Shown piece by piece: positions 18,875 to 26,343 of a stretch of 35,050 bases of DNA. The stretch's first letter is position 1. The number at the start of each line of letters is the position of its first letter. Where the stretch lies: the IMG/VR virus record IMGVR_UViG_3300030104_000562, positions 1 to 35,050 of that record. One strand, 5' to 3'. Under the pieces are notes generated by a model. That model did not search any database, had not been told where the DNA came from, and worked only from the letters and a program-made list of their open reading frames with translations. The DNA is from a virus. The translations under genes and the position numbers were made by a program.

Positions 18875-20146
18875 TTAAATAATTCTATAACTATTATCTG
18901 CTACACTTTGTGGAGCCGATTGTCTAGTATTAATTTCTTGTAGTCCAACAGCTAGATACCTCATAGCATCACAAGCGTGTGAACTCCAATCATGTACAGG
19001 TTTCGATCTAAACATTCTATTTTTGTCGATGTACTTCCTATGGTAATGTCTTAACGCATCTATTAACTTTTTGCAATGGTCTGTATCAATCCAACATCTC
19101 GGCAAAGTCATTGAGGTTGCGTGTATACCATCTTCTAATGGAATTTTTGGAACTACCTTAAACCTAATTCCTAATTGGTAGGCGACCTCTCTTCTGGTTT
19201 TGCCATTACCAAAGTCTGTAACTTCAATGTCGTGTGGAGCAAAGTGATCTTTGTAAACATAATCTTTGTCTTTAACAAGCTGAACATAGTAAGGTAAACC
19301 TTGACCTCTCTCTTCATGATAATCTATTATGCTTATTGATCTTCCTAACTGTTGATAGAATATTATACTACTGTGGTCGGAGACACCTAGATCCCAAGCT
19401 GTTGATACTGGTAGAGCAGGATCGTAGGGAACTCTTGTAAGCTGCTTATCATCATCTAGTTTTGTAATGATGTCTCCATATACTGCACCTTCAATATTTG
19501 CTATCCAATCACACTCAAACTCTTGCTGATACTTTTTTTCACCCATTACCTCTTTTGCCTTGACCAACTCTTCTTCATCAACAATTTTTGTTTGACTAGC
19601 TTTTGCCTTGTAGTTGAACCAATCATCAGCACCTTGTGCATGTTGGTATAATTCATAAAAGTTATTGTTCATCCCCATCGGAGTTCCAATAAACACACAA
19701 TAGCCTTTACGATCAGATAATGCTGGTCTAATTATTTCTGGGAATAGCTTACTGTTTACATTTGCGTACTCATCAATCACACATCCATCTAGATATATAC
19801 CTCTTAATCCATCTGGAGACTCTGAGCCTAGCAAGGTGATACGAGAGCCATTAGGTAAATCTACACGCAGCTCTGTCTCGTTAAACTTGGTGTGGGGTAT
19901 CTTGGCGGTAAACTGTTTCATGTAATCCCATGCAATACTTTTTGCTTGTTTGAAGGTGGGTGCAATGTAGGCATATCTAGGGTTTTTCTGTTTGGACAGT
20001 AATGCTGACCTAATTAGATGGTTAATCATACATACTGTTTTGCCAAACCTTCTATGGCAAACTAATACATTCCATCTGTATTTATCTATTTGTTTATGTA
20101 AGTAAGCCTGGTGCTTTCTAGGTGTATAGGGTATTTTAATATCCAT
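18875..20146 (-). CDS. terL: Terminase large subunit
   Basis: 423 residues; packages DNA through the portal. ATPase: Walker A-like RRFGKT (32-37), Walker B CVIDE (122-126), coupling motif GTP (154-156). Nuclease: Asp252 in the WDLG segment, then the DYHEERG region, and a late acidic residue in SSHACDAMRYLA (Asp393). Length is normal. It heads the leftward late operon. The small-subunit-like gene is not adjacent: it is 2.8 kb away in the early leftward operon with a rightward gene block between. TerL type might reflect a headful or a cohesive/terminal-repeat mechanism, but I cannot assign it here. Confidence 0.93.
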   Translation of the reverse strand: MDIKIPYTPRKHQAYLHKQIDKYRWNVLVCHRRFGKTVCMINHLIRSALLSKQKNPRYAYIAPTFKQAKSIAWDYMKQFTAKIPHTKFNETELRVDLPNGSRITLLGSESPDGLRGIYLDGCVIDEYANVNSKLFPEIIRPALSDRKGYCVFIGTPMGMNNNFYELYQHAQGADDWFNYKAKASQTKIVDEEELVKAKEVMGEKKYQQEFECDWIANIEGAVYGDIITKLDDDKQLTRVPYDPALPVSTAWDLGVSDHSSIIFYQQLGRSISIIDYHEERGQGLPYYVQLVKDKDYVYKDHFAPHDIEVTDFGNGKTRREVAYQLGIRFKVVPKIPLEDGIHATSMTLPRCWIDTDHCKKLIDALRHYHRKYIDKNRMFRSKPVHDWSSHACDAMRYLAVGLQEINTRQSAPQSVADNSYRII

Positions 20147-20148
20147 AA

Positions 20149-20340
20149 CTAATGAACTAATTTGCTGTAATTTTCTTCTCCAAAAGGTGTGTATTCAAAT
20201 CCTAGTCTCATCATAATGTAAGATGTAAATAGTTGTGCAGAGTCATGATTAGGCATACCAAAGAATTTAATTACAACATTGTTGGTTTCTTCTTCAATAA
20301 AGCAAACACAATCTAGATCTTCTGATGAAAAATAGTTCAT
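20149..20340 (-). CDS. Small acidic protein upstream of terL
   Basis: 63 residues from the ATG at 20340: an acidic, aromatic N terminus (MNYFSSEDLDCVCFIEEE) and a mixed alpha/beta remainder (VVIKFFGMPNHDSAQLF, then a Met-rich helix). An ATG three codons upstream (20349) is equally possible. Neither has a clear ribosome site. The open frame continues to 20520 only by using TTG, and that part does not look like protein, so I excluded it. It ends 2 bases before terL. Function unknown. Confidence 0.6.
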   Translation of the reverse strand: MNYFSSEDLDCVCFIEEETNNVVIKFFGMPNHDSAQLFTSYIMMRLGFEYTPFGEENYSKLVH

Positions 20341-20576
20341 ATACCACATATAGTTTATTTTGTGTAGAATGAAAACAAAAGAAGTCTGTGTGTATAAAGG
20401 TGTCCTCGAGTCCCATGTATATATATATAATAAACGTGTAGCGTTCTGTGAGGTATACCCCCTAAGCAAATCTAAAAAAGTAGATCCTAGTCTGTAAAAA
20501 TATACAATAAAGTGTTTCAATAATAAAAGATTATTAGTAATGATTAATAAAAATTCTTTTTAATGGTCCTTGTACA

Positions 20577-20593
20577 TTAGAATAATTCTAAAC
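20577..20593. promoter_or_regulatory. Operator-like dyad, copy 1
   Basis: TTAGAATAATTCTAA is a perfect 7+1+7 dyad, followed by AC. The same 17 bases recur at 20866-20882 with one mismatch. The paired sites, 289 bases apart, flank most of the noncoding block. This spacing and symmetry fit a dimeric repressor or activator site. Confidence 0.6.
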
Positions 20594-20827
20594 CGAAGTA
20601 ATACGAGAACAGGAAAAAATTTTCTATAAATTAGGATAGCAACATTTCAACATAACTTCTTTCAATCTTCAACTTTAATCTTCTTTAATCTTTTAAAACT
20701 TCCCTTTCCTTTTTTACTTTGTTTAATTTTGTTTCTGTATTTTCTTTTGAATAGCTCTTTCATCATTAAATTTTTAAATTTTATCATATAAATTTGTTCT
20801 ACAAATGTATTGGTTTTGTGATCGAAA

Positions 20828-20857
20828 TGCAACACTTGTTGCCTGTTTGCAACACTT
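20828..20857. repeat. Direct repeat of TGCAACACTT, 20-bp period, with inverted half-site
   Basis: TGCAACACTT occurs at 20828-20837 and 20848-20857, two helical turns apart. Between them GTTGC (20838-20842) is the inverse of GCAAC, giving a GCAAC-ACTT-GTTGC dyad and then a third half-site. It lies just upstream of a consensus -10 box, so an activator or repressor site is likely. An origin iteron is the alternative. Confidence 0.55.
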
Positions 20858-20865
20858 ACGATAAC

Positions 20866-20882
20866 TTATAATAATTCTAAAC
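20866..20882 (+). promoter_or_regulatory. Rightward early promoter -10 overlapped by operator-like dyad, copy 2
   Basis: TATAAT (20867-20872) is a perfect sigma70 -10. No good -35 stands 17 bases upstream; the GCAACACTT repeats are there instead. The box is part of TTATAATAATTCTAA, the second copy of the dyad found at 20577. A protein bound to the dyad would block this promoter. It would drive the genes from 20964 on. Confidence 0.55.
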
Positions 20883-20963
20883 TATATGCGTCAATCTGTC
20901 TTATATATTTTATATAATTAATAAATATACAATTAGGTTATGTACAAAAAGAAAGGAAACAAT

Positions 20964-21155
20964 ATGACAATTAAATTATACAAAGAAATACAATTCAGTG
21001 ATGGTTATATTTTCTATGAACAAAAAAATGGAAGATACACCGACACAAAAAAAGAAGAAGATTGTGATTTATCTTTTAACTCATGGAAAGATATTCAAGA
21101 TGCTTTAGACAATGACGATTTAGAAATATCTATTTGTAAATTATATAAAAAATAA
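20964..21155 (+). CDS. Small acidic early protein, unknown
   Basis: 63 residues from the ATG at 20964, chosen because GAAAGGAAAC lies just upstream; an earlier in-frame ATG at 20940 has no such site. The protein is acidic (YTDTKKEEDCDL, DNDDLEISI) and has the layout of a small alpha/beta protein with aromatic residues (FSDGYIFYEQKNGRY). It is the first gene of the rightward early block. A host-takeover role is plausible but unsupported. Confidence 0.65.
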   Translation: MTIKLYKEIQFSDGYIFYEQKNGRYTDTKKEEDCDLSFNSWKDIQDALDNDDLEISICKLYKK

Positions 21156-23386: not shown

Positions 23387-23621
23387 CTGTTTTATCTTTA
23401 AAGTTTTTTAAGTTTTTTAATAGTTTTATTTTGTTTTGTATAGTTACATTTTTATTGTTGTATAAACCTTTGTATTTTCTGGTCTTAGAATCTGTAGATT
23501 GAGATCCCCCATGAAATCTACAAAGCATACGTTTTGAAGTAGGGGTAAAATATCCTTTTGCACGACAACGCTTACCGCTTTGCTTGGATATACCCTCACA
23601 TCTTATCTTTATCTTTGGCAT
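23202..23621 (-). CDS. HGG-motif zinc-binding-like protein
   Basis: 139 residues. The N-terminal CEGISKQSGKRCRAKGYFTPTSKRMLCRFHGG (Cys8, Cys19, Cys34, His37) is the Cys/His plus HGG signature of small phage proteins that usually lie just before terminase genes. The rest is very basic. Its last 61 codons run through the terminase-small-subunit-like gene in another frame, and that part (Arg/Tyr-rich) may be passively fixed by the overlap. A probable DNA-binding accessory to packaging; this is inference. Confidence 0.6.
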   Translation of the reverse strand: MPKIKIRCEGISKQSGKRCRAKGYFTPTSKRMLCRFHGGSQSTDSKTRKYKGLYNNKNVTIQNKIKLLKNLKNFKDKTDEEIKRYIQDQEQLASQSNRYRTKYYTRHYLRWRNTPYRSQRHLKDQLDVFLQVLRSKSKV

Positions 23622-24303
23622 TACCTTTATAATCTAAATTATTTCTTTTGTTATATGCAACCTTCTCTCTGTATCTTGGATTACTATTCTTACTAATAGA
23701 TTTTAGAGCTTGTAAGATTTTTTGAGGGGGAACGTATGTCTTTTTCTCATTGGCAGCTAATTCCTGTTTTCTCTGAATGGCTAACTTAATATAATAAGGA
23801 TTGTTCTTATCCATTTGTAAGTCAACCAGGGGGAGCTTCGCTAAATTGTCAATTATTAATTGTTGATTACCTTTATAGTCTCTAATCACATCCTCAATAG
23901 GCTTATTGGTTATTGTATCTATTGTTTCTACTAATGTCTTTACATTTGAAACATTGGATGTTTCATTTTTATACATTGATGTTTCATTTTTATACATACC
24001 CTTCTCAAACTTAACAAACTTAGGGTTAATTTGATAGGTCTTACCAGACCTACCTTTTATAGTAGAGATCACATTTAATTTCGTAAGAGTTTGTAATGTT
24101 CTGTGAATTGTGGTCCTAGATAACTTGGTATCTTTTTGAATTGTAGAGTGCCTTAATCCTGCTCTATAATCGTTAGATTTCCAACAATATTTCATTAAAG
24201 ATAGATAAACAGACAGACAATTAGCCTTTTTAGACCCCCCAACCTTATCTAAATGGTGATAAAGTATGTATGTAAGCTGTAAAAATCCTCTAGTCTTTAG
24301 CAT
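23596..24303 (-). CDS. Winged-helix DNA-binding protein, possible replication initiator or regulator
   Basis: 235 residues. Residues of about 20-100 (LSVYLSLMKYCWKSNDYRAGLRHSTIQKDTKLSRTTIHRTLQTLTKLNVISTIKGRSGKTYQIN) form a clear winged helix: helix, turn, recognition helix, then a wing ending in Tyr-x-Ile-Asn. This layout is shared by phage replication proteins of the lambda O / RepA-N kind and by regulators. The middle carries a duplicated MYKNETS, whose DNA is a 20-bp direct repeat. The C terminus is basic. In lambda-type phages the origin lies inside such a gene, which makes the repeats interesting. Function not certain. Confidence 0.62.
   Translation of the reverse strand: MLKTRGFLQLTYILYHHLDKVGGSKKANCLSVYLSLMKYCWKSNDYRAGLRHSTIQKDTKLSRTTIHRTLQTLTKLNVISTIKGRSGKTYQINPKFVKFEKGMYKNETSMYKNETSNVSNVKTLVETIDTITNKPIEDVIRDYKGNQQLIIDNLAKLPLVDLQMDKNNPYYIKLAIQRKQELAANEKKTYVPPQKILQALKSISKNSNPRYREKVAYNKRNNLDYKGNAKDKDKM
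23947..23997. repeat. Tandem 21-bp repeat plus 8-bp dyad inside the winged-helix gene
   Basis: GATGTTTCATTTTTATACAT occurs at 23957-23976 and 23978-23997. The first copy is preceded by TGAAACAT (23947-23954), which pairs with ATGTTTCA (23958-23965) around a TGG centre. In protein this is MYKNETS twice. The combination of direct repeats and dyad inside an initiator-like gene resembles an iteron origin or an autoregulatory operator. Confidence 0.55.
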
Positions 24304-25041: not shown

Positions 25042-25866
25042 CTAAACTCCACACATACCCTCATCACATAAATGGCTAAACATATCTAATTGCTTATCAT
25101 CTTCAGCTTTATTAAACTGTACTTCACTCAAAGGTTTACAAGACCTATGAACAAATATCTCTTCATCTTTTTTTCTTGTAATACTTCTAACTTTTGAATC
25201 AAAATCAACAGCTATTGCAAACTCTTTTGGTCTTTCTGTTTTCATAAAATACCAGTAAGCATCATTATGAAATGGACATACAATACACGCTGACTTTTCT
25301 GGCATAGGTACATTTTGTTTTTTTAAATAGTTAATACAATCTTGCCTTGACATATTCATTTCAATCAATGGATGTTTGTTTAAAATATATTTATCTCTTG
25401 CAGGTTTCATTCTTTGTACTTCATCAGTAGATATACCAATCCATTGCTCAACATACTTATCTTTAGGAAAGTGTTTACCTTTTTTAACACCACAAAGTTC
25501 TCTTATTTTTTTTCTTATTTCTTGTATTTTATACACATTCGTGCATTGACGCATGACCATACCTTTCTTACCAGTTATTTTATTTTGTGTAAAATATGGT
25601 GCATCAACAAAGTTAGTTGTATCTTTTGCAGCTAACATATCTTTCATAATATCTCCTTTTGAAACTACATAAACAGGATAAGGTAAAATTGATTTTAAAT
25701 ATTTTAAATATTTATTAACTGCTTCTGGTTCATTTTTTGTGTCTGCAAAGATTGCTGCCTGTGGCATGGGTAAATCTCCTTTAGCTGCCATGATTGCCAT
25801 CGTGGAGCTTTGTACTCCTGCACCTAAACTTATTACTGTTAATATTTTTTCTCTATCTTCCATCAT
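25042..25866 (-). CDS. N-type ATP pyrophosphatase (PAPS reductase-like)
   Basis: 274 residues. SLGAGVQSST (13-22) is the PP-loop of the adenine nucleotide alpha-hydrolase superfamily. The following AIFADTKNEPE strand, the CTNVYKI segment (Cys108) and WIGISTDEVQRMK match phage PAPS reductase-like enzymes. CIVCPFHND (Cys194, Cys197) and Cys residues near the C terminus could hold a metal or Fe-S cluster. The family adenylates a substrate in sulfur transfer or in nucleic acid modification. The substrate here is unknown. It lies in the early leftward operon, not with metabolic genes. Confidence 0.78.
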   Translation of the reverse strand: MMEDREKILTVISLGAGVQSSTMAIMAAKGDLPMPQAAIFADTKNEPEAVNKYLKYLKSILPYPVYVVSKGDIMKDMLAAKDTTNFVDAPYFTQNKITGKKGMVMRQCTNVYKIQEIRKKIRELCGVKKGKHFPKDKYVEQWIGISTDEVQRMKPARDKYILNKHPLIEMNMSRQDCINYLKKQNVPMPEKSACIVCPFHNDAYWYFMKTERPKEFAIAVDFDSKVRSITRKKDEEIFVHRSCKPLSEVQFNKAEDDKQLDMFSHLCDEGMCGV

Positions 25867-26126
25867 TTTAAAACCTCAATTTTTTTAACTACTGATCTTG
25901 GATATACTGTAGTGTTGCCAACTGTTAATGTTCCATCATCATCAAAGCTATGCGATGCAAATATGATAAGTTTTTTCTGGTCCTTATATAATAAATAACC
26001 TGTATCTTCACACCAAGAATAGATTTGATCTTTTGCTTTTTCTAAACTGGTCCATTCAGAATTACTGACGATGTCGACCCAATATATTCTAACTCTTTTG
26101 TATGGAAACTTATTTGCCTTCTTCAT
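25863..26126 (-). CDS. Small protein, unknown
   Basis: 87 residues from the ATG at 26126, with GGTGGG just upstream; a start at 26144 adds six residues but lacks a site. KRVRIYWVDIVSNSEWTSLEKAKDQIYSWCEDTGYLLYKDQKKLIIFASHSFDDDGTLTVGNTTVYPRSVVKKIEVL reads as a small beta-rich protein with a conserved-looking WVDI...SEW start. Similar short proteins occur in marine phage early operons. Function unknown. It overlaps both neighbours slightly. Confidence 0.6.
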   Translation of the reverse strand: MKKANKFPYKRVRIYWVDIVSNSEWTSLEKAKDQIYSWCEDTGYLLYKDQKKLIIFASHSFDDDGTLTVGNTTVYPRSVVKKIEVLK

Positions 26127-26343
26127 AATCCCACCATGCTTCATACAAGTCTTGCAAAGTAACTTTACCTTTAGTTACTTCTAAAATTTTTTTAACCATG
26201 TTTGGTTTAGGAAATCTTTTTTCCTTAGACTCTAAACACCATCTTTGTACGTTTGTCGCTGGGTTTATTCCTGTTAAGTTTAATCTTCTACCTAATTCGT
26301 AATGAGATATTTTTTCTTTTTTTCTATACTCGCTGAGCTTCAT
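26110..26343 (-). CDS. Cro/CI-like helix-turn-helix regulator
   Basis: 77 residues. MKLSEYRKKEKISHYELGRRLNLTGINPATNVQRWCLESKEKRFPKPNMVKKILEVTKGKVTLQDLY is a compact Cro-like HTH: helix 2 HYELGRRL, recognition helix ATNVQRWC, then the closing PNMVKKILEVT. It is the first leftward gene, just downstream of overlapping divergent promoters, with a strong AAAGGAG ribosome site. That is where an early switch protein normally sits. It may bind the promoter region or the dyads at 20.6-20.9 kb. Confidence 0.78.
   Translation of the reverse strand: MKLSEYRKKEKISHYELGRRLNLTGINPATNVQRWCLESKEKRFPKPNMVKKILEVTKGKVTLQDLYEAWWDYEEGK

Follow-up and report, generated by a model that had tools for sequence, protein, structure and literature searches.

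Among the boxes recognized by Fur-superfamily regulators are some of 7-1-7 geometry, such as the PerR box, which we take to be TTATAATNATTATAA. For the Irr box of Alphaproteobacteria, also known as the iron control element (ICE), we assume the consensus TTTAGAANNNTTCTAAA. That phages can carry sites for the regulators of their hosts is already established. In pili- and flagellotropic phages of Alphaproteobacteria, sites for CtrA have been linked to a deferment of the lytic program, and both binding and regulation were demonstrated by experiment (PMC9437464). OxyR, in turn, controls the mom gene of phage Mu and the gtr genes of P22 (PMC2909390). P. ubique has been reported to encode Irr (PMC2864753), and the HTVC010P-type phages form the second most abundant known group of pelagiphages (PMC12753301). 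In the open-licence literature, we found neither a report of Irr sites in phages nor a description of early-gene control in HTVC010P-type or other pelagiphages. Phage control by host regulators thus has precedents in CtrA and OxyR, while the predicted Irr case considered here appears to be new.

The locus described below resembles that of the CtrA phages in that putative host-factor sites are concentrated in one phage control region, where they are proposed to read the state of the host. However, CtrA is a cell-cycle regulator with many sites, whereas the regulator predicted here responds to iron and heme and has one or two sites, which were recognized by sequence comparison. The likeness to OxyR lies in a host stress regulator that is predicted to act on phage genes; the difference is that OxyR works together with Dam methylation on modification genes, whereas here an Irr-type site is located near the first early gene.

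Two dyads in the early control region of a pelagiphage

The window, i.e. the whole stretch of DNA analyzed, is a 35,050-bp virus record belonging to the HTVC010P pelagiphage group. Its terminase shares 93% identity with that of HTVC010P, and for its tail-tube protein the identity is 76%. The structural block is oriented leftward and the early genes run rightward from position 20940. The leftward block includes the large subunit of the terminase (18875-20146, minus strand), which served as the anchor for fetching relatives, and a small upstream ORF (20149-20520, minus strand) that is kept in relatives and is without a family match. The first rightward early ORF (20940-21155, plus strand), likewise without a family match, starts either at 20940 or at an in-frame ATG further in. 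Among the early-side genes, a phosphoadenosine phosphosulfate reductase-like gene was also found (25042-25866, minus strand; E 4e-47).

The non-coding DNA between the terminase block and the early genes contains two dyads, both of which we predict to be Irr-type operators. Site 1 is a perfect 7-1-7 dyad, TTAGAATAATTCTAA, at 20577-20591 on the terminase side, and site 2, TTATAATAATTCTAA, is found at 20866-20880 on the early side. Their starts are 289 bases apart and each is directly followed by AC, which confirms the pair described in the original prediction. Within one mismatch, sites 1 and 2 are the sole matches in the window, and the many equal copies that would have refuted the original prediction are absent. 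Allowing up to three mismatches gave 10 matches compared with 8.5 expected; because this count is close to chance, only the near-perfect sites are informative. What is informative about them is their position and their match to a motif from outside the window, rather than their copy number.

The original prediction had further placed site 2 over the -10 box of the rightward early promoter. A TATAAT is indeed present at 20867-20872, inside site 2, but sigma-70-like promoter matches in the dyad region did not exceed chance, with four found versus 4.3 expected. We therefore consider it no more than plausible that site 2 covers the -10 element of this promoter.

Conservation of the site among related phages

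To relate the dyads to the wider group, 80 related contigs were fetched by their terminase and scanned at a threshold of 15 bits with a matrix derived from host sites only. All 48 matches above 15 bits were located 1500-200 bp upstream of the terminase, a concentration of putative host-regulator sites in the phage control region like that known for CtrA, and the other 422 kb of the 80 contigs contained no match above this threshold. Judging from the 57 contigs having enough DNA upstream of the terminase, a strong site is present in 39 and missing in 18. The dyad stands out from its surroundings in conservation: information content over 41 non-redundant sites amounts to 1.37 bits per column in the 15-bp core, compared with 0.15-0.17 in the 30-bp flank on each side. 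Most relatives possess a single site, which precedes the first early gene by about 100 nt; the median spacing between site and first early ORF is 103 nt.

In seven of the ten cultured relatives (HTVC010P, HTVC203P, HTVC035P, HTVC100P, HTVC204P, Skadi-5 and Lederberg), the site precedes the first early gene by about 60-170 nt. The versions found in this region of Greip and HTVC024P are degenerate, and HTVC034P is without the site. Relatives thus retain the dyad at the corresponding position, whereas a lack of conservation would have refuted the original prediction, and the notion that the control region of the early genes contains operator-like sites is supported. The site is nevertheless not essential to the group, given the 18 contigs without a strong site and its absence from HTVC034P. 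In Greip, this intergenic region contains a perfect dyad that shares the geometry but has other outer letters (TGAGAATGATTCTCA; MT375525.1:22417-22431).

Two sites as in the window occur in Lederberg, where they are 304 bp apart, and in the contigs L004, L062, L068 and L073. Site 2 occupies the position that is conserved across the group, and site 1 represents an additional copy, the like of which only part of the relatives have. The paired sites emphasized by the original prediction are hence real in the window, yet they are a minority arrangement among relatives, in which the single site is the rule. We therefore discarded a cooperative or looping pair as the defining feature of this locus, as pairs are in the minority and their spacing varies (289 in the window and 304 in Lederberg).

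The phage dyads match the irr locus of SAR11 hosts

SAR11 genomes encode up to three Fur-superfamily proteins, one of which is putatively of the Irr type. The best NCBIfam models for this protein are IrrA and Irr, although its scores stay below the curated cut-offs, with 132 bits compared with 150 for IrrA. Its gene, here called irr, adjoins the divergently oriented fabA and, in most genomes examined, also katG or a rubrerythrin gene. The intergenic regions of this locus contain the same 7-1-7 dyad as the phages. At irr itself, the dyad closely precedes the start codon and follows a TATAAT-like box at a distance of a few bases; in front of katG or rubrerythrin, it occurs once or twice around a TTGACA.

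Both described box types resemble the phage sites. Site 1 with its flank fits our assumed ICE consensus TTTAGAANNNTTCTAAA at 13 of 14 specified positions, i.e. with one mismatch, and site 2 fits it with two. In agreement with an Irr box, the motif surrounds irr, katG and rubrerythrin in the SAR11 host; it differs in being found here within the early control region of a lytic phage rather than in a host promoter. The PerR box has in common with our sites the 7-1-7 geometry and host targets that include peroxide-defense genes, and site 2 is close to the assumed TTATAATNATTATAA. However, the host regulator scores 63 bits or less with PerR models, compared with the 132 bits of the Irr-type assignment.

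The relation between phage and host sites was examined in both directions. A de novo palindrome search of the host irr-flanking regions, carried out without phage data, returned as its top result TTAGAATAATTCTAA, which is identical to site 1. Conversely, a phage-only matrix was built from 28 phage sites, excluding the window, and applied to a complete SAR11 chromosome of 1,343,202 bp. Its best two matches flank irr (23.1 and 22.1 bits), and the third, at 16.5 bits, lies 5.6 below the second; the maxima in ten shuffled chromosomes ranged from 15.2 to 20.9 bits. With the host-only matrix, the top two positions of the window were the two dyads, site 1 with 21.3 bits and site 2 with 21.1 bits, followed by a position with 6.2 bits, and the best score in 200 first-order shuffles of the window was 15.8 bits; this matrix had been gathered with patterns near the phage dyad, which favors such a match, a bias that affects neither the scan from phage to host nor the de novo palindrome search. 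Moreover, site 2 with its flank, TTATAATAATTCTAAACT, differs from the irr site of the same complete chromosome, TTATAATTATTCTAAACT, solely in the central base. Taken together, the phage and host sites are, as judged from these comparisons, the same motif.

Across 101 SAR11 genomes, TTAGAANNNTTCTAA was not over-represented relative to a reversed control. The host signal is the location of the few sites, not their genome-wide abundance. In four SAR11 genomes (L346, L348, L349 and L353), the dyad also occurs just upstream of a gene for a 334-residue protein resembling TAXI-type solute-binding proteins, which suggests that the host regulon may be slightly wider than the irr locus. Another dyad-bearing contig of a SAR11 assembly (L352; G082:C27) has a virus-like gene content and might be a co-sorted or integrated virus.

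Beyond the related phages, a perfect TTTAGAATNATTCTAAA was found in at least 120 viral contigs, most of them without homologues of the genes in the window, and 93% of the sites among the matches listed are non-coding. Of two control palindromes, one that matched TTTAGAATNATTCTAAA in base composition and was similar in its stop-codon pattern occurred in 43 contigs in all and was non-coding in 88% of cases, and the other was non-coding in 15%. We did not use the non-coding fraction of TTTAGAATNATTCTAAA as evidence, since one of the two controls is nearly as non-coding.

Host Irr as the probable regulator of early transcription

With this information at hand, we consider it probable that HTVC010P-type pelagiphages carry, in the dyads of their early control region, operators for the Irr-type Fur-superfamily regulator of SAR11. 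Irr is proposed as the binder because of the proximity of its gene to the host sites and the logic of autoregulation; another host Fur-superfamily protein could take this role. On phage entry, dimers of host Irr would bind the phage site and set the level of early transcription, and site 1 of the window might provide a second contact on the late side. Our best guess is that binding represses, since the host sites closely follow the apparent -10 box of irr and cover the apparent spacer or -10 box of katG. By analogy to other Alphaproteobacteria, repression would be relieved once Irr is inactive, i.e. in iron- or heme-replete and possibly in peroxide-stressed cells. Infection of such cells would accordingly begin faster, and that of iron-starved cells slower.

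We tentatively suggest that this widespread ocean phage group might in this manner gate the start of the lytic program on the iron, heme and peroxide status of SAR11, employing host Irr as the sensor; this wider idea may or may not hold, and we lean slightly toward the latter. If it were true, iron supply or photochemical peroxide would change the speed at which infected cells are lysed. Likewise, if the early region answers to Irr, infection of a very common marine bacterium would be tied to iron, heme and peroxide, all of which vary over the ocean.

The opposite sign is conceivable as well, with Irr bound upstream of the early promoter helping RNA polymerase and infection being favored in iron-poor cells. 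The site usually precedes the first early ORF by 80-120 nt, from where an activator could act, and Irr of Bradyrhizobium is described as acting both positively and negatively (Rudolph 2006, as cited in PMC2864753). However, the host sites overlap apparent promoters and resemble repressor sites, and activation by Irr seems unlikely to us.

Still less probable is that the sites serve as decoys. Here, replicated phage genomes would titrate Irr and thereby derepress katG, rubrerythrin and irr of the host, which would protect against peroxide, and control of early genes would be secondary. The peroxide-defense genes among the host targets around irr and the near-consensus quality of the phage sites would fit such a function. 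Yet each phage genome has one or two copies, kept at a constant position close to the first early gene, an arrangement that titration would not need. Published pelagiphage RNA-seq covers HTVC022P and HTVC027P (PMC12753301). The induction of irr reported there during HTVC027P infection does not support a decoy and has no bearing on the site, because HTVC027P lacks it; for the same reason, we rejected titration as the cause of this induction.

Phage-encoded proteins and a variable second dyad

The original prediction had named two phage proteins as candidate binders, a Cro-like helix-turn-helix protein (26110-26343, minus strand) and a winged-helix protein (23596-24303, minus strand). For these to bind the dyads, the likeness to the host sites would have to be coincidental or secondary. 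Both proteins are DNA-binding in appearance, and each of the ten cultured relatives has the winged-helix gene. This set, however, includes HTVC034P, which is devoid of the site. The Cro-like gene is equally independent of the dyad, as no homologue was detectable in HTVC035P and HTVC100P, which possess the site, while HTVC034P encodes one. In addition, the dyad and the host irr locus match specifically, whether the comparison runs from phage to host or from host to phage. Binding by either phage protein is accordingly a very poor prospect, and neither candidate is retained. The locus also departs from phage operators of the Cro/CI type, for which co-occurrence with the cognate repressor gene and multiple in-register copies would be expected: HTVC035P, HTVC100P and HTVC034P break the former, and the sites usually occur singly or in pairs of varying spacing. 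In HTVC034P, the match to the winged-helix protein (MW273922.1:2780-3481) spans one in-frame TAG.

The least probable explanation, to which we attach hardly any weight, is that the dyads merely reflect divergent promoters whose -10 elements overlap, with TAGAAT/TATAAT on both strands; TAGAAT or TATAAT does occur within the sites, on one strand or on both, but conservation spans both half-sites and flanking columns, promoter-like matches in this part of the window do not exceed the chance expectation, and a symmetric -10 box alone leaves unexplained why the best host matches are at the irr locus and not at promoters in general.

Next to the predicted Irr-type site 2, the window contains a second dyad, TGCAACACTTGTTGC, together with a repeat, GCAACACTTACG, at 20828-20858. 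A dyad at the matching place was found in HTVC203P, HTVC035P, HTVC100P, HTVC204P and Skadi-5. Its sequence differs between relatives, with GCAACA..TGTTGC, TGCGACATATTGCGCA and GTCATAATGTGAC as the observed forms. This variable dyad is a putative phage-specific operator, and for that role it is a stronger candidate than the Irr-type site.
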